DNA of 64,000 bases from Acidobacteriota bacterium (GTDB lineage Bacteria > Acidobacteriota > Terriglobia > Versatilivoradales > Versatilivoraceae). The position numbers and the translations under genes were made by a program. The stretch is from assembly GCA_022826755.1 (NCBI GenBank), contig JAJDUG010000016.1:1-64000 (forward strand). Reading direction: 5' to 3'. The notes below the pieces were generated by a model that searched no databases, was not told where the DNA came from, and worked only from the letters and a program-made list of their open reading frames with translations. Numbering within the stretch: the stretch's first letter is position 1; each line of letters begins with the position of its first letter. Below are positions 1,271-63,675 of this stretch, in pieces.

Positions 1271-1909
1271 ATGGAGCGGGTCGTGGCAACGCTTGATATT
1301 GTGAATCTGGAGAATGAGGTGGTTGGTCAACTCGATCTCCACGACACGGTTTTTTCGGTCAAAGTCAACAAGAGCCTGCTCTATCTGGCGGTGAAACACT
1401 ACCGTGACAGCCTCAGACAAGGAACTCACGCCACCAAGACCCGCGCCCAGGTGCGTGGCGGGGGTCGAAAACCCTGGCGGCAGAAGGGTACCGGAAGAGC
1501 CCGGGTCGGAAGCTCCCGCAATCCACTCTGGAGAAAGGGTGGAGTGGCCCATGGGCCGAAGCCCAGGTCCTACGCCTTTCGCCTTCCCAGGAAAATGTTG
1601 CAGGGTGCGATGCGTTCGGCCCTGAGCGACAGGTTCTCCTCGAACTGTATCAGGGTGGTCGCCGATTTTTCCTTGCCCAATCACAAGACCAGGGAGTTGG
1701 ACCAGGTGCTGCGGAAGCTGGAGACGCGGAGAAAGCTTCTCATCGTGGACAATGGGGAGAATGAGAACCTGGCCCGAGCCTCCGGCAATCTGCCGGAAGT
1801 GAAAGTCGTATCCAGTCGTGGGATTACCGTTTACGATTTGCTGAATTCCAGGAGTGTTCTTTTCTCCAGGAAGGCCATTGAGAAACTTCAGGAGGGTCTG
1901 CAAGCGTGA
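1271..1909 (+). CDS. rplD: 50S ribosomal protein L4
   Basis: 212 residues. The L4 exit-tunnel loop is clear (TRAQVRGGGRKPWRQKGTGRAR, residues about 57-78). L4 binds 23S rRNA, and in E. coli it also represses the S10 operon; no such leader structure was assessed here. Its stop overlaps the rplW start by four bases (GTGA), which implies translational coupling. Confidence 0.96.
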   Translation: MERVVATLDIVNLENEVVGQLDLHDTVFSVKVNKSLLYLAVKHYRDSLRQGTHATKTRAQVRGGGRKPWRQKGTGRARVGSSRNPLWRKGGVAHGPKPRSYAFRLPRKMLQGAMRSALSDRFSSNCIRVVADFSLPNHKTRELDQVLRKLETRRKLLIVDNGENENLARASGNLPEVKVVSSRGITVYDLLNSRSVLFSRKAIEKLQEGLQA

Positions 1910-2196
1910 ATCCGGCCTCGATCGTAAAGCGCCCGATCATCACCGAGAAGGCCTTGGGTCTGAAGGAAGACCACAGGTATCTGTGCTTTGAAGTGTCTGC
2001 ACGGGCCAACAAGCATCAGGTCAAGCAAGCCGTCGAGAAGCTCTTCAACGTAAAAGTGGCTTCGGTCAATACCGCCGGCTTCAAGGGTAAGGAACGACGA
2101 CAGGGACGCTATGTCGGGCGGCGGCCCGATTGGAAGAAGGCCTTCGTCAAGTTGAAGCCCGGCGAAAAGATGATTGAATACGCGGACATAACTTAG
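1906..2196 (+). CDS. rplW: 50S ribosomal protein L23
   Basis: 96 residues from a GTG start overlapping the end of rplD. It begins MNPASIVKRPIITEKA, the normal L23 opening, and has the basic loop with KGKERRQGR and a final DWKKAFVKL strand. L23 lies at the polypeptide exit and is a docking site for SRP and trigger factor. The stop codon TAG (2194-2196) abuts the left arm of repeat element B1. Confidence 0.96.
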   Translation: MNPASIVKRPIITEKALGLKEDHRYLCFEVSARANKHQVKQAVEKLFNVKVASVNTAGFKGKERRQGRYVGRRPDWKKAFVKLKPGEKMIEYADIT

Positions 2197-2314
2197 TGAA
2201 GAGTGAAGAGTGAAGAGTGAAGGAAGCAACCATTCTTGATACGAGCTTAACGATGGCATACGGTGCGGTCTTGTTCCCGAAACTGATCACTAACCACTAT
2301 TCACTAGCCACTAC
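2196..2314. repeat. Repeat element B1 with inverted GTGAAGAGT arms
   Basis: The left arm (2196-2223) is a direct repetition of the 9-mer GTGAAGAGT. The right arm (2288-2314) is built of CACTA-type units that are largely its reverse complement. About 64 bp of unrelated sequence lies between. Two further elements with the same arms occur at 9237-9363 and 31295-31817. It fills the rplW-rplB gap and ends seven bases before the rplB start codon. Confidence 0.75.
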
Positions 2315-8499: not shown

Positions 8500-9093
8500 A
8501 TGGTGACTCAACGAGGGCGTTTGGAGGCCAACATCGATTCGAGTGAATCCCAATTCAAGGACCAGGTGGTTTCGATCAATCGCGTCACCAAGGTCGTCAA
8601 GGGCGGCAAGAACCTGAGTTTCAGCGCCCTGGTGGTTGTCGGTGACGAGAACGGCAGAGTGGGTTACGGCAATGGAAAAGCCAAGGAGGTTCCCTCGGCC
8701 ATTCGCAAGGCGACCGAAGCGGCCAAAAAGAACCTGATCCGTGTCCCGATGAAGGGCACTACCATTCCTCACCTGGTAGTCGGTCGATTCGGCGCGGGCC
8801 GGGTGCTGCTGAAACCGGCTCCCGATGGAACCGGCGTTATTGCCGGCGGACCGGTGAGAGCCGTGATTCAGTCGGCAGGAATTCAGAATGTGTTGACCAA
8901 GTCTCTGGGGAGCGCCAACCCTCACAATGTGGTGAAGGCCACCATTGAGGGCCTCCAGCAGCTCAGGGACATTAGAGATGTTGCTCGTTTGAGAGGGAAG
9001 TCGCCCGAAGAAATTTTACAGGTGCCGGAGCCGCAAGGGCATGAAGAAACAGAACAACCCCAAGAAAACGCAGAAGATGCCTCTGAAGATTAA
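8500..9093 (+). CDS. rpsE: 30S ribosomal protein S5 with acidic C-terminal tail
   Basis: 197 residues from ATG 8500, after AGGGAGGC. The S5 double-stranded-RNA-binding fold is clear: [37 protein letters not shown] and [19 protein letters not shown]5 takes part in decoding accuracy. The protein is about 25-30 residues longer than usual. The extra tail is rich in Glu, Gln and Pro ([18 protein letters not shown]) and overlaps the start of rpmD. Confidence 0.96.
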
Positions 9094-9256
9094 GCTGGTC
9101 AGGAGCGGCATTGGCCGCTCGGCCCGGCAAAAGCAGGTGATTCGAGGTTTGGGTTTCAGAAGGTTGAACCAGACCGTTGCCCGACCCGATACTCCTGAAA
9201 TTCGCGGCATGATCTTCAAGATTCGCCATCTCTTGGAAGTGAAGAGTGAAGTTTGA
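9041..9256 (+). CDS. rpmD: 50S ribosomal protein L30
   Basis: 71 residues from ATG 9041, which has a GGAG about 10 bases upstream. An in-frame ATG at 9077 would give a 59-residue protein starting [14 protein letters not shown], the usual L30 length. The family core is [28 protein letters not shown], split here only for reading. The last residues (EVKSEV) and the TGA are encoded by the left arm of repeat B2, so the natural C-terminus appears to have been replaced. Confidence 0.9.
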
Positions 9257-9363
9257 AGTGTGAAGTTTGAAGTGTGAAGAAGGGATGCTCCGGGATGTTC
9301 AGTATGCTCAACGTGTCGATCGAATCACAACTATTCACTAACCACTCTGCACTCTCCACTATT
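9237..9363. repeat. Repeat element B2 with inverted arms
   Basis: Left arm 9237-9283 consists of GTGAAGAGTGAAG- and GTGAAGTTTGAAG-type units. Right arm 9330-9363 (ACTATTCACTAACCACTC...) is largely complementary to the arms of B1 and B3. About 46 bp of unrelated sequence lies between. It spans the end of rpmD and the gap before rplO. Confidence 0.72.
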
Positions 9364-19457: not shown

Positions 19458-19460
19458 GGC

Positions 19461-19791
19461 CTGAAACAACAGAAAAAAGAGCTATCCACTAAGACACACG
19501 AAGGATCACGAAGACACACGAAGCAAGGCAATGTTCTTGACCCACTCAAAGGGAACGCCCCTTGGGTTCGGGTGAGGGAAAACGCAGCCAGTCGGCTTCC
19601 CGCGCCACAGCGTCTCATCCTGTTCATCCTGTGTATCCATATTCAATAGGTAGATAACCGGATCAACGGGACGGGGTCCTTGTTGCCGAAAGGCCACGAA
19701 GAAAAACGGGAAGAGATCCATTCGAATTCGTGTTCATTCGTGGTTCGTCTTTATTGACGCCCCCCTGTTTCACTCTCGAATGATCCGCCCG
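19461..19791 (-). repeat. Dispersed repeat A, copy 1 (about 330 bp)
   Basis: Non-coding. In reverse complement it matches 31383-31734 almost base for base, with small indels. Shared landmarks are GGGCGGATCATTCGAG at one end, the AACCACGAATGAACACGAAT tract, ACCCAAGGGGCGTTCCC, and TTCGTGTGTCTT...GTGGATA near the other end. A shortened copy is at 47501-47627 and an end fragment at 63601-63675. No terminal inverted repeat or open frame was found. Confidence 0.85.
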
Positions 19792-30635: not shown

Positions 30636-31214
30636 ATGCTGATGAAGGCTCAGCCGGAGGAACAAACCGCGGCGCTTACCGGGCTGGTGCGCCAAATGCT
30701 TGGCCACCTGGGCGAAGATGCTCAACGGCCGGGGTTGGAACGGACTCCCGAGCGAGTGGCGGCCAGTCTCCAGTTTCTTACTCAGGGCTACCAGCTCGAC
30801 GTGGATTCGGTGATCAACGGGGCGCTGTTTGAAGCCGAATACGACGAAATGGTGATCGTCAAGGATGTTGAGGTCTACAGCCTTTGCGAGCACCACCTTC
30901 TGCCCTTCTATGGAAAGTGCCACCTGGCTTACCTGCCGGATCGCAAGGTCATCGGACTAAGCAAGATGGCTCGAATCGTGGATGTCTTGAGCCGCCGGCT
31001 GCAGATTCAGGAAAGGCTCACCACGGAAATTGCATCCGCGGTCAAGGAGCACCTGGAGCCGAAGGGAGTGGGCGTGGTCATTGAAGCCTATCATTTCTGC
31101 ATGATGATGCGCGGGGTGCAGAAACAAAACAGTCAGACCGTCACCAGTTGCATGCTCGGCCGCTTCAAGAGCGACAGCAAGACCCGCAGCGAGTTTCTGG
31201 AGTTTCTCAAGTAG
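30636..31214 (+). CDS. folE: GTP cyclohydrolase I
   Basis: 192 residues. It opens GTP to dihydroneopterin triphosphate, the first step of folate and pterin synthesis. Zinc ligands are seen in [13 protein letters not shown] (Cys and His) and in [12 protein letters not shown] (Cys), and [10 protein letters not shown] is conserved. It lies 44 bp after pdhC and may be transcribed with it, though the pathways are unrelated. Confidence 0.95.
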
Positions 31215-31294
31215 TTCTTCCCCTGCCTGGAACAACCCGGTTTCGCCCCCTATGAACCGCCCCATCGAATGGGACGGCGGCGCGCTTAGGGGAA

Positions 31295-31817
31295 AAGTGA
31301 ATAGTGGAGAGTGGAGAGCTACTTGATCGACACGCAAAGCATCTTGTCGGTCTCGGCGCGTCCAGCCCCCGCCCCCGCGACCGGGCGGATCATTCGAGCG
31401 TGAAACAGGAGGTTGTTAATAAAGACGAACCACGAATGAACACGAATCGGCACGAATACGAATGGATCTCTTTCGGTTTTTCTTCGCGGCCTATCGGGGC
31501 AACAAGGAGCCTGTCCCGTTGATCCGGTTCTCTACCTGTTGAACATGGATACACAGGATGCACAGGATTAACAGGACGAGAGGCTGCTGCACGGGAAGCC
31601 GACCGGCTGCGTTTTCCCTCATCCGAACCCAAGGGGCGTTCCCCTTGAGTGGGTCAACAACATTGGTCTTTCTTAGTGGCCCTTCGTCGTTCTTCGTGTG
31701 TCTTCGTGGATAACTCTTTTTTTCTCTTGTTTCTGATAAGCCAGATTATCAGGTGCTTGCCTGTTCCCGAAACACTCGGCTGAGCACTCTCCACTCTTCA
31801 CTCTCCACTCTTCACTC
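31295..31817. repeat. Repeat element B3, containing repeat A copy 2
   Basis: Left arm 31295-31320 (AGTGAATAGTGGAGAGTGGA) and right arm 31783-31817 (units of CACTCTCCACTCTTCACT) are inverted relatives of the B1 and B2 arms. The interior holds the whole repeat A copy 2. The right arm encodes the last residues and the stop of the - strand peptidase gene ending at 31798. The 31215-31294 stretch before it shows nothing recognisable. Confidence 0.75.
31383..31734 (+). repeat. Dispersed repeat A, copy 2 (about 350 bp)
   Basis: The most complete copy, in the opposite orientation to 19461-19791. Just upstream, the GC-rich lead-in (CCCCCGCCCCCGCGA) is also present ahead of copy 3 at 47501, so the true left boundary may be about 25 bp further out. 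No gene was found in it. Confidence 0.85.
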
Positions 31818-32727
31818 CCCGGTCTGAAAGCTTTTCAAGAGTCCTCAGCACGATCTGTCCCACCCGTTCCATGCTGCGGGGGCTGATCTTGTCCAGAGTG
31901 TCCTGCGGCGTGTGCCAGTAGCGGTTGTTCGGTCCGAATTTGAAATCGATCAGATCCACGGCCGGGATACCCACCTCGGTAAAGGGGATGTGGTCGTCCA
32001 GCACGGCCATTGGATTACCGGACAGGTGTTGTCCAAAGCCCAACTCGGTGGCGGATTCTTGCACCAGGCCCATCAGCCAGGGGGTCGAGTTGAGGTCGTG
32101 CTCCAGCACCAGGTCCTTGTCCCCCACCATGTCCATCAGGATCATGGCCTTGATTCTGCCGGTTTGACCGCTGCCTCTGAGACGCTCCACAAAGTATCGG
32201 CTCCCGTAAAGGCTGTCGCTGCTCGACCAGGCCTTCTGGGCTTCTTCTCCGTCGAAAAAGACGAACCAAAAGGAGAAGTTCGGTTTTCGGATCGACAGCA
32301 CCCTTGCCAGTTCCAGCAACAAGCCCACGCTGGACCCTCCATCGTTGGCTCCCACAAAGACCCCGCCCGGCATCAAGTGGGTGTCGTAGTGGCTTGCCAG
32401 AATCACCACCTTGTCTACCTTTCCCGGAGACCTTGCAATGATGTTTTTCATGGGCAGGTTGCCATTGGGCGTCGAAGCCAGGAAGTTCTGGTGTTCGACT
32501 TCCAGGGAGAGTCGTCGCAGAACGTCCGTAATGTACTGTTGTGCTTTCTTGATGCCGGGTGACGCCGGAGGTCGGGGACCGTAGCTGACCAGGCGTTCCA
32601 CATGGGAGAATGCCCGATCGCCGCTCAAGCGGAGACTTTGTCCCCAATGATGGACGGCGAAGATTCCGAAGAGGAGCAGGCCGGTGAGGCCTGTGGCAAC
32701 ACCTGGGGATGGGTGGCGATGGGTCAT
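31798..32727 (-). CDS. M28-family metallopeptidase / glutaminyl cyclase-like
   Basis: 309 residues with an N-terminal membrane or signal segment (GVATGLTGLLLFGIFAVHH). Zinc-binding residues fit the M28 fold: His in ASHYDTH, bridging Asp in GANDGGSSVG, Glu-Glu in FFDGEEA, Asp in ILMDMVGDKD, and His in YWHTPQDTLDKIS. The family includes aminopeptidases and bacterial glutaminyl-peptide cyclotransferases; the spacing suggests the latter group. Its final residues (GVKSGE) and stop come from the B3 right arm. Confidence 0.85.
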   Translation of the reverse strand: MTHRHPSPGVATGLTGLLLFGIFAVHHWGQSLRLSGDRAFSHVERLVSYGPRPPASPGIKKAQQYITDVLRRLSLEVEHQNFLASTPNGNLPMKNIIARSPGKVDKVVILASHYDTHLMPGGVFVGANDGGSSVGLLLELARVLSIRKPNFSFWFVFFDGEEAQKAWSSSDSLYGSRYFVERLRGSGQTGRIKAMILMDMVGDKDLVLEHDLNSTPWLMGLVQESATELGFGQHLSGNPMAVLDDHIPFTEVGIPAVDLIDFKFGPNNRYWHTPQDTLDKISPRSMERVGQIVLRTLEKLSDRGVKSGE

Positions 32728-55296: not shown

Positions 55297-56439
55297 TCAC
55301 CAGATAGGGATTCCCCTTTCGATATACCAGCGATAAGCGGCAGCGAGGCGGTGGGCGTCGGAAAGCTCGCTCTGCGTCATCGAGCTTTCTAGCCCCAGGA
55401 GCGTGGGAGAGTGGCTTCCGGGTGAGGCCTCGGCTGCCAGGGCCAGCCAGGCGTAAGCGTGGATGGCGTACATACGCCCGAGGGAGTAATGGGCGCGGGT
55501 GTGGTTCTGCTTAGCGGCCTTTAGGTACCAGTTGAGGGCCTGGTTGTAATCCTTCGAAATCTCCTGTTTCAAACTCGCCCGGCCCTGATGGTACATGCGC
55601 CCGAGTTGATATTGAGCACCAGCGTGTTCTAGCTCGGCAGCCTTCCGGTACCACTTCACCGCCTCTCGGTAGTCCTGTTGTACGCCACGGCCCTCAGCGT
55701 ACATGGAAGCCAGGCGGTGTTGCGCCTCGGCGTTTGACCACTCGGCGGCCTTTCGATACCACTTCACCGCCTCTCCGTAGTCCCGCCCCACACCCCCGCG
55801 GCCATTGGCGTACATGGTGCCCAGGAGTAATTGAGACGGGTCGTATCCCGGTTGCTCGGCAGCCCTCCTGTACCACTTCACTGCCTCTCGGTCATCCTGT
55901 GGTACGCCTCGGCCGGCAGCGTACATCTGACCCAGGCAGGTTTGCGATGGGGCGTGGTCCTGCTCGGCGGCCTTTCGGTACCACTTCACCGCCTCTCGGT
56001 AGTCCCGCCGCACGCCCCGGCCCTCAGCGTATCTGGAACCCAGCCAGTATTGAGAAATAAAGAATCCTTGCCAGGCGGCCCTCTGATACCAGATCACCGC
56101 TTCTCTCTCGTCCTGTCGTACGCCCTTGCCCTCAGCGTACTTGAATGCCAGGGTGTTTTGACACAGGGCGTCTCCCTGTTCGGCAGCCTTCCTGTACCAC
56201 TTCACCGCCTCTCGGTCGTCTTGCGGGACGCCATCGCCCTGATCATACATGAAACCCAAGAGGCCTTGCGCCTTGGCGTGTCCCTGATCGGCGGCCTTGC
56301 GAACCCACTTCACGGCCTCTCGGTGGTTCTGCGGCACGCCCTTGCCATGCATGTACTCAACTCCCAGGGCGAATTGAGCCTCGGCGTCCAAGCGAAACCA
56401 CTTGCGGACCAAAGTGTTTAGGTTGCTTATGATTCTCAT
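55297..56439 (-). CDS. Sel1-repeat protein, mobile-element cargo
   Basis: 380 residues with about eight Sel1 units of 36 residues (REAVKWYRKAAEQGD, AEGRGVRRDYREAVKWYRKA). One unit is expanded (GRASLKQEISKDYNQALNWY). There is no signal peptide, unlike the Sel1 protein at 19810, so it probably acts in the cytoplasm. It is convergent with the Abi-like gene, 62 bp apart. Confidence 0.85.
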   Translation of the reverse strand: MRIISNLNTLVRKWFRLDAEAQFALGVEYMHGKGVPQNHREAVKWVRKAADQGHAKAQGLLGFMYDQGDGVPQDDREAVKWYRKAAEQGDALCQNTLAFKYAEGKGVRQDEREAVIWYQRAAWQGFFISQYWLGSRYAEGRGVRRDYREAVKWYRKAAEQDHAPSQTCLGQMYAAGRGVPQDDREAVKWYRRAAEQPGYDPSQLLLGTMYANGRGGVGRDYGEAVKWYRKAAEWSNAEAQHRLASMYAEGRGVQQDYREAVKWYRKAAELEHAGAQYQLGRMYHQGRASLKQEISKDYNQALNWYLKAAKQNHTRAHYSLGRMYAIHAYAWLALAAEASPGSHSPTLLGLESSMTQSELSDAHRLAAAYRWYIERGIPIW

Positions 56440-58073: not shown

Positions 58074-59150
58074 TCAGTACGGGTCTGTGATTGTGATTCG
58101 AGACTTCCCAGTCCGCTGAGTGGTGCCGGTCGACAAGCTGCCGTTTGAACCCCACATTCTGTGATATTCCATGTTTCCGATCCGCTGGGTGGTGCCAGTC
58201 ACCAGATTGCCGTCCGAGCCCAACAGACTGTGGTATTCCGTGTTTCCGATCCGCTGGGTAGTGCCAGTCACTAGGTTGCCGTCCAAATCCATCAGGCTGT
58301 GATACTCCGTGCTCCCGATCGGCTGGGTAGTGCCGGTCACCAGGTTGCCGTCCGAGCCCAACAGACTGTGGTATTTCGTGTTTCCGATCGGCTGGGTGGT
58401 GCCGGTCGAAAGGCTGCCGTCTGAGCCCAGTAGGCTGTGGTATTCCGTATTCCCGATCGGCTGGGTGGTGCCACTCAACAGACCGCCGTCTGAACCCCAC
58501 CAGTTCTCAAGAGTCGTCTCATAGCTTGTTCGGTGGCCGGTGTCTTCAGGCTGGCTCCAAACGGGAAATGAAGTCCTGCGGTATGTTGACTGGGGTGCCA
58601 AGGTGCTGCGAAGCAACGAGTCAGCGACCCCTTGGACAATTTCTCCGAACAAATTCAAATAGACACGCTGCCGGTTGATTTGGTCGAGGCGTCTTCGTGC
58701 AGCGTCAAATCCCTGGTCACTCTCGCTGGCCAGGTCTTCGCCAGCCAGCTGCCGGTTGATCTGGTCAAGGCGTTTCCGTGCAGTGTCAAATCCCTGGTCA
58801 CTCTCGCTGGCCAGGTCTTCGCCAGCCAGTCGCCGGTTGATCTGGTCAAGGCGTCTCTGTGCAGCGTCAAAGCCCCGGTCACTCTCGCCAGTTGGGTCCC
58901 CGCAGTCCAGTTGTCGGTTGATCTCATCGAGTCGCTTGCGCGCAGCGGTAAAGCGGTCAGATTCATCAGCAGAGGCAGGGGTCTCCACTGTGGGCTGAGA
59001 ACCGGAAGGGAAAAGCAGGGCATCGCTCTCCTCCATAGTGAGACAATCCGATCGGTCGCCTTCGGTATCTTGAGGCGATTGTGCGTGGCTCAATGCTGTA
59101 GAAAAGGCGAGCACAATAACCAACAAGATTTTCCAGACCGTCATGGTCAA
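58074..59150 (-). CDS. Secreted protein with two tandem-repeat regions
   Basis: 358 residues with a signal peptide (ILLVIVLAFSTALSHAQ). Region 1 (about residues 68-160) has about four 27-residue units built on RRLDQINRQLAGEDLASESD, probably coiled coil. Region 2 (about 215-350) has about six 23-residue units of the form NTEYHSLLGSDGNLVTGTTQ followed by PIG, resembling short beta-meander repeats. The linker RLDEINRQL also occurs in the adjacent ankyrin protein. Function unknown. Confidence 0.75.
   Translation of the reverse strand: MTMTVWKILLVIVLAFSTALSHAQSPQDTEGDRSDCLTMEESDALLFPSGSQPTVETPASADESDRFTAARKRLDEINRQLDCGDPTGESDRGFDAAQRRLDQINRRLAGEDLASESDQGFDTARKRLDQINRQLAGEDLASESDQGFDAARRRLDQINRQRVYLNLFGEIVQGVADSLLRSTLAPQSTYRRTSFPVWSQPEDTGHRTSYETTLENWWGSDGGLLSGTTQPIGNTEYHSLLGSDGSLSTGTTQPIGNTKYHSLLGSDGNLVTGTTQPIGSTEYHSLMDLDGNLVTGTTQRIGNTEYHSLLGSDGNLVTGTTQRIGNMEYHRMWGSNGSLSTGTTQRTGKSRITITDPY
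58110..58500 (-). repeat. 69-bp tandem repeats in the secreted repeat gene
   Basis: About six in-frame copies of a 69-bp unit, differing by a few bases each (TCCGATCGGCTGGGTAGTGC, TGTGGTATTCCGTGTT). They encode the 23-residue GSDGNLVTGTTQPIG units. Confidence 0.8.
58660..58960 (-). repeat. 81-bp tandem repeats in the secreted repeat gene
   Basis: About four copies of an 81-bp unit encoding RRLDQINRQLAGEDLASESD-type segments. The two central copies are nearly identical, which suggests recent duplication. Confidence 0.75.
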
Positions 59151-63600: not shown

Positions 63601-63675
63601 TTCTTTTTCCCTTCCTGTTTTCTTCGTGTGTCTTCGTGGTCCTTCGTGGATAACTCTTTTTTTCAGTTGTTTCAG
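63601..63675 (+). repeat. Dispersed repeat A, copy 4 (right-end fragment)
   Basis: Matches the right end of copy 2 (TTCTTCGTGTGTCTTCGTGG and ATAACTCTTTTTTTC...GTTTCAG). It overlaps the stop codon of the DUF1501 gene and separates it from the integrase fragment. Confidence 0.75.

Follow-up and report, generated by a model that had tools for sequence, protein, structure and literature searches.

Three elements with inverted heptad arms

The window, by which we mean the whole stretch of 64,000 nucleotides of Acidobacteriota DNA analysed here, carries three elements, B1, B2 and B3, each bounded by inverted arms of tandem 7-bp repeats (heptads). The elements and their neighbouring genes are given below, where IVP stands for the 23S rRNA intervening-sequence protein; the names rplB and rplO are presumed from gene order.

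1906-2196, plus strand: rplW (L23, PF00276), its TAG stop overlapping the first bases of the B1 arm
2195-2312: B1, between rplW and rplB; left arm 2195-2222, right arm 2287-2313
2224-2259, reverse strand: B1 core, first codons of the IVP gene, MPSLSSYQEWLL against MTSLSSYRELIV in the complete copy
9077-9256, plus strand: rpmD (L30, PF00327), with the arm-encoded end EVKSEV*
9238-9360: B2, between rpmD and rplO; left arm 9238-9279, right arm ending at 9360
30636-31214, plus strand: GTP cyclohydrolase I gene, upstream of B3; same TAG stop in the congeners read
31215-31291: outer module left of the B3 arm, without counterpart in empty sites and resembling the flanks of other elements
31292-31359, minus strand: B3 left arm plus a remnant of the IVP 3' end (ETDKMLCVSIK*), matching positions 456-389 of the complete element at 72% over 68 nt
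31296-31816: B3, between the GTP cyclohydrolase I gene and the M28 peptidase gene
31296-31318, plus strand: B3 left arm, AGTGAATAGTGGAGAGTGGAGAG
31365-31742: nested repeat inside B3, with 10-bp CACGAAT-type arms, dozens of copies, separate from the heptad element
31785-31816, minus strand (inverted): B3 right arm, whose minus strand provides the M28 peptidase with GVKSGE and its TGA stop
31798-32727, minus strand: M28 peptidase gene (PF04389), its 3' end rebuilt by the B3 arm

The original prediction described B1, B2 and B3 as repeats with inverted arms of one family, and the same build was indeed found in all three. The gene tails that it read from the arms were recovered as well: rpmD ends in HLLEVKSEV* and the M28 peptidase in KLSDRGVKSGE*, while at rplW the AGTG at 2195 lies inside the TAG and GTGAAG starts from the last base of the stop. 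The middle of B3 (about 31365-31742) needs correction: it belongs to another interspersed repeat, nested between the heptad arms. The pattern GTGAAGAGT, with at most one mismatch, occurs 23 times in the window, compared with 11.9 expected. Since an Rfam scan of the window returned one tRNA and nothing else, the elements correspond to no curated RNA family.

An intact IVP gene between heptad arms

A profile search of the genome with PF05635 gave four matches, three of them over the family cut-off. At C78:7850-8167 (contig C78), an intact PF05635 gene lies between inverted AGTGAAG arrays. Its protein scored 133.4 bits to PF05635 (cut-off 33.8) and 134.6 bits to the NCBIfam model TIGR02436, 'four helix bundle protein' (cut-off 24). 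The gene is thus a member of the PF05635/TIGR02436 family of 23S rRNA intervening-sequence proteins, four-helix bundles with solved-structure relatives 2gsc and 2rld. The IVP is under purifying selection, with dN/dS values of 0.07-0.19 in nine of ten comparisons and a saturated dS in the tenth. Records labelled Binatia, Dehalococcoidia, Thiorhodococcus and Pseudanabaena, among others, contain IVPs that are 70-82% identical to it; among 50,697 phage records, a single one matched at E<=1e-5, with 32% identity.

The same genome has a second IVP subfamily, at C12:17999, C19:53409 and C65:47988, flanked by TTTGAAG heptads in place of GTGAAGA; a stop interrupts one copy, and another is matched only in part and scores under the cut-off.

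Outside its arms, the C78 copy was matched by 32 of 53 short elements (E<=1e-3), B1, B2 and B3 included. Thirty-one of these matches fell in the last 100 nt of the copy, and that of B1 near its start. When the middle of the copy was shuffled 20 times, no element matched in 19 shuffles and one did in the remaining shuffle; the reversed sequence gave none, and of five sets, each of 53 other intergenic stretches, one set had a single match and four had none. The other 21 sampled elements had no IVP homology at E<=1e-3. As 32 of the 53 cores match the ends of the IVP gene, compared with 0-1 in the controls, the short elements that match are gene-less, MITE-like derivatives that arose from the IVP element by internal deletion. 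Such gene-less derivatives outnumber the complete copy in the genome. The B1 core keeps the first 12 codons of the IVP gene (83% over 36 nt), and the B2 core with its right arm resembles the 3' end of the gene (79.7% over 64 nt). The earlier description misses the identity of the repeats, in which the arms mark the limits of an element with its origin in a PF05635 gene. In our judgement, B1, B2 and B3 are probably non-autonomous, internally deleted copies of an element comprised of a heptad array, an IVP gene and an inverted heptad array.

Placement of heptad arrays at the 3' ends of genes

In the 4.62-Mb genome, GTGAAGAGTGAAGAGTG with at most two mismatches had 336 overlapping matches, compared with 13 for the reversed pattern. 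Arrays of at least two AGTGRNN heptads numbered 48 in 0.83 Mb, with none in the reversed control. The list of these arrays holds no minus-then-plus neighbours within 700 bp, and therefore neighbouring arms point inward; the pairing code covered plus-then-minus pairs, and the absence of the opposite order was read from the list. A search for period-7 arrays in 1,624,126 bases (35% of the genome) revealed 89, compared with two in a codon-shuffled control, and 74 of the 89 lay at most half inside called genes. These were grouped into 54 elements, of which 53 had neighbours on both sides; the one without a neighbour was left out. Gene calls for the placement counts and for the gene controls were made with our own simple hexamer caller, which is non-standard.

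In this 35% sample, 20 of 59 3'-facing edges overlapped a coding end and 21 were within 30 nt of one, while among 47 5'-facing edges one overlapped and 14 were within 30 nt. Twelve of the 20 coding-end overlaps covered at least 9 nt (tails VKSEV*, ESGE* and KFEV*) and eight covered 1-5 nt; B3 was caught by its left arm alone, and its overlap with the M28 peptidase gene is outside the 20 of 59. In gaps between tandem genes, 25 of 39 elements lay over the upstream stop or within 10 nt of it, compared with 12.4 +- 2.3 under random placement in the same gaps; six of the 39 lay over the start codon or within 10 nt of it. Divergent gaps, which make up 24% of the intergenic sequence and 17% of the junctions between genes, held 4 of 53 elements. 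The orientation of the core relative to the abutting gene was unbiased (12 same, 15 opposite). The enrichment at stop codons, on whose absence the original prediction would have fallen, is therefore present in the sampled 35% of the genome. Though this enrichment holds, we give more weight to the parent IVP element.

At C40:16318-16614, the core and right arm stand in tandem with a 79-bp step and three right arms, and thus elements also grow by internal duplication. Outer modules (GTGAAACAGG..TTTCAG and GATCCGYCCCGTCG-like hairpins) recur beside the arms, and sometimes come and go with the elements.

Occupied and empty sites in the genus

We compared the present genome (G000) with its congeners G001-G006. 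The B1 and B2 sites are occupied in all seven genomes; both are old insertions. As all seven carry B1 and B2, the rplW and rpmD stops may be native or supplied by the arms. In several congeners, the two arms of B2 are unlike each other. The B3 site is empty in G001, G002 and G004, retains only a short right-arm remnant in G006, and in G003 and G005 holds an insert without heptad arms. A further site, C8:111799, is empty in four congeners.

The B3 site reveals what an arm does to a gene end. The M28 peptidase ends in KLSAR* in G001, G003, G004 and G005 and in KLSTR* in G002, while in G000 and G006 it ends in KLS[D/A]RGVKSGE*, with GVKSGE* encoded by the arm. The B3 arm thus added GVKSGE and a new stop to the peptidase, replacing the native stop. 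At C40:82575, the G000 gene ends in FREV*, its last codon and stop coming from the arm and the stop lying within a TTTGAAG heptad, while G005 has no element and the end FREE*. Read by eye, G006 has the same gene end as G000, G001, which lacks heptads, ends in FREEGGPVR*, and the end in G004, where there is an insert with GATGAAT arms, is FGEKGE*. The element shows one route by which the C-terminal tails and stops of ordinary genes are replaced.

It had been proposed that the arms encode a harmless tail followed by TGA, and so could settle at gene ends. The new stops at B3 and C40:82575 bear this out, but not as a general design: among the consensus heptads of 157 arms of PF05635 elements, a stop was read inward in 89 and outward in 85. 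As these are equally frequent, we rejected an 'all-frame stop' as a general feature of the arms.

Folding and possible mobility

Both arms of the complete copy form a long terminal stem (folding z -4.07). Five short pieces, two of which were parts of elements (146 of 176 nt and 148 of 218 nt), gave z values of -6.63, -4.17, -2.52, -1.97 and -0.05 compared with shuffles; B2 (-0.05) and part of C40:88817 (-1.97) were not distinct from the shuffles. Could the elements be host regulatory hairpins, acting at gene ends as terminators or in mRNA stabilisation or translation coupling, with the likeness to IVP incidental? Their position at gene ends, their retention at rplW/rplB and rpmD/rplO in all seven genomes of the genus, and the regulatory role suggested for cyanobacterial STRR hairpins in the part of that report available to us (PMC2670836) agree with such a role. 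We nevertheless consider it improbable, given the excess of IVP-derived cores over controls, the differences between congeners in presence and heptad at the same gene end, and the folding of B2, which is no better than that of shuffles.

MITE, ERIC and REP sequences are short, non-autonomous, intergenic elements with inverted repeats that can add ends to genes, and they have fixed terminal repeats and a transposase parent. The present elements are likewise short, palindromic, intergenic and multi-copy; they share with MITEs their terminal inverted repeats, the internal deletion of a parent and their many copies. They differ in that the parent found encodes an IVP, and in that the heptads vary between copies. 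A REP-like or classical MITE, on whose terminal inverted repeats a DNA transposase would act in trans, is accordingly a quite improbable account. The variable heptad leaves no fixed terminal repeat, and the sole gene found inside is that of the IVP. Of the transposases, the Y1 family (PF01797) was searched, and it had no match in three of the seven genomes, G000 included. No clear target-site duplication was seen at the sites read across congeners, where the element ends are not defined to the base.

Matched heptad arms at other PF05635 loci

The comparison was widened to a set of 109 PF05635 loci. HMM searches of this genome and its relatives (best matches first) supplied 30 of them; the other 79 lie in named genomes and were collected with the C78 protein as query, so that they are relatives of one IVP. 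Three loci at contig ends (L080, L082 and L093) were left out of the 109, while L077, L092 and L102 were kept despite a contig end shortening one flank, and the gene limits of these three are off by at most 143 nt. In both 160-nt flanks, the autocorrelation had peaks at lags 7, 14, 21 and 28 that were missing from far flanks; at lag 7 it was 0.35-0.38 near the gene, compared with about 0.25 far from it. A period-7 run lay on one side of the gene or on both in 92 of the 109 loci, and on both in 49 (far-flank control, 5/205). The flanks matched across the gene in inverted orientation in 89 loci and in direct orientation in 21 (far-flank control, 2/96); 20 loci were under the inverted-arm threshold. 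Two gene controls were used. Of 153 genes called in this genome with lengths of 240-500 nt, three had an inverted match and one had runs in both flanks; when a single other ORF was taken per contig from 76 named contigs, the counts were four and none. In 20 genomes found by way of named loci, 27 of the 30 best-scoring loci had an inverted match (direct, 5), as did 17 of 19 lower-ranked loci (direct, 5). The best-scoring loci overlap the 79-locus named set, while the lower-ranked loci, at other places, were 20 picked from the HMM matches listed, 19 of them usable (L386, incomplete, was left out).

Heptads vary from element to element, while the two arms of any one element agree. Unit similarity was 0.806 between the two arms of one element, 0.530 between elements and 0.466 in direct orientation, values that come from 58 of the 109 elements, those for which each arm had a score; none of 5000 permutations reached 0.806. 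One and the same gene end bears GATGAAT- or AGTGGAG-type heptads in different congeners, and in-register mixtures were seen by eye inside single arrays. We also asked how closely the heptad tracks IVP phylogeny, and only a weak signal was found (Mantel r 0.22, n 37); unit similarity was 0.83 above 70% IVP identity and about 0.6 below.

On cyanobacterial plasmids, seven of eight IVP genes, picked among the matches listed (25 of 41 records), had matched heptads on both sides, such as AGTAGGG, AGGGAAC and AGGGTGT, and the eighth was below the threshold for arrays on both sides. One Nostoc plasmid has two IVP genes whose heptads differ from each other, though each is matched across its own gene; the plasmid also bears further inverted heptad pairs that lack an annotated IVP gene. 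Heptad arrays also lie near an IVP gene between two ribonucleotide reductase genes on a Nostoc edaphicum plasmid (L402:44521-44889) and near one between cas6 and cas4 on an Anabaena sp. 90 plasmid (L394:695-1063).

Heptad numbers are variable and 7-mers are a noted class of bacterial repeat in the available parts of two reports (PMC4679880, PMC4692102), as would be expected of simple sequence repeats that arose on the spot through slippage, non-mobile and favoured at gene ends because harmless there. We regard this origin as extremely improbable: it is contradicted by the inverted pairing around a shared IVP core, by empty orthologous sites, and by the flanking of one protein family across phyla, the lineage labels of other genomes being those of record titles.

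A proposed mechanism of spread

Herein, we describe how the IVP-derived elements could spread. The two arms would pair into a hairpin, in a transcript or in single-stranded DNA. The IVP made from complete copies may then recognise the folded element and serve its spread both in cis and in trans. Insertion would proceed without an obvious target duplication and be tolerated chiefly on a stop codon or directly downstream of one. The position near stops would mostly reflect tolerance by selection, and in this genus heptads with an inward-reading TGA would help. Slippage would alter the number of heptads, while correction templated by the hairpin may keep both arms alike as the heptad sequence drifts.

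The IVP is not known to have an enzymatic activity, and thus a partner would be needed. In one scenario, the IVP, distantly related to the DGR protein Avd, would act together with a reverse transcriptase, and this enzyme would copy the hairpin RNA into the ends of genes. Matches of the IVP to the bAvd and DivGenRetAVD models are weak and do not reach the cut-offs; a resemblance between PF05635 and Avd near DGRs is noted in the part of a published report seen (PMC10053308); and RVT_1 matches are present in six of the seven genomes, G000 having one. Against this, G003, rated 100% complete, has no RVT_1 match, yet has PF05635 genes, including a full-length one. We regard a retroelement as rather unlikely. 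PF05635 is also named among CRISPR-linked proteins in a figure legend, the part seen of another paper (PMC10910872).

Relation to known systems

Pieces of the anatomy described here are already known, namely the heptamers of the Coxiella IVS, the cyanobacterial STRR hairpins and the TAACTGA repeats. In the 23S rRNA IVS of Coxiella burnetii, as described in the part of the report available (PMC4990558), tandem heptamers (GACAGAT) that vary in number between strains precede the S23p ORF, and a PF05635-type gene undergoing deletion lies inside a stem of complementary ends. In the complete C78 copy, complementary ends likewise form a terminal stem around the IVP ORF. The systems differ in that the IVS lies inside 23S rRNA and is cut out by RNase III, while the present elements lie at the ends of protein genes, with heptad arrays at both ends and gene-less derivatives that outnumber the complete copy. 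None of 40 IVP loci scanned for rRNA had a match over the gathering score, and the window elements lie between protein genes.

The cyanobacterial STRR are 7-bp repeats able to form hairpins, found in promoter regions and between genes and of unknown function, as far as the part of the source seen goes (PMC2670836). Hairpin-capable tandem 7-bp repeats likewise lie near or between genes in this genome and at cyanobacterial IVP loci, but the STRR, as described in that part, have no link to a gene or to mobility. The TAACTGA repeats of Beggiatoaceae are abundant and mostly intergenic; their forward copies have stops in all three frames and some overlap ORF ends (PMC4679880, in part). They differ from the present arms as one fixed heptamer, repeated directly except in one inverted set and mostly directed at start codons, and no IVP is mentioned with them in the portion seen. 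The main text of a review of prokaryotic MITEs (PMC10969869), as far as seen, has no mention of heptamer, S23, four helix or intervening sequence. Within the open PMC literature, preprints aside, no report joining PF05635 genes to inverted heptad arms was found.

We tentatively propose, as a real possibility, that IVP genes may be the core of a widespread class of mobile elements distinct from known transposons. Such a class would combine drifting heptads in matched arms, a non-enzymatic four-helix-bundle protein, insertion without target duplication, and gene-less swarms at gene ends. It would take in the 23S rRNA IVS and many of the STRR hairpins of cyanobacteria. If true, three loose ends recorded separately would share a home: IVP genes with no assigned purpose, hairpins of heptamers like the cyanobacterial STRR, and repeats extending over the ends of genes. 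The elements would then conserve a 7-bp period and the matching of their arms rather than a fixed sequence.

A second family with 10-bp arms

The repeat nested in B3 belongs to a second interspersed family, with 10-bp arms of the CACGAAT/CTTCGTG type, also present at window positions 19460-19790 and as a 10-bp tandem run at 63621. The single GxxExxY (TIGR04256) match of the genome, at C60:22153, has the same 10-bp arms. The nested repeat at 31365-31742 and the GxxExxY copy have only these arms in common, and its likeness to the GxxExxY protein is confined to 10 N-terminal amino acids. The flanks of GxxExxY genes had an autocorrelation peak at lag 10 (0.290, compared with 0.244) in the 27 of 30 loci that were long enough. 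In G001, 16 of 20 GxxExxY matches were C-terminal fragments only, most below the family cut-off, and by analogy would parallel the IVP derivatives. GxxExxY genes with 10-bp arms may form a second, parallel class. The window also has long tandem repeats at 55632-56388 and 58112-58954, with periods of 108, 69 and 81 bp.
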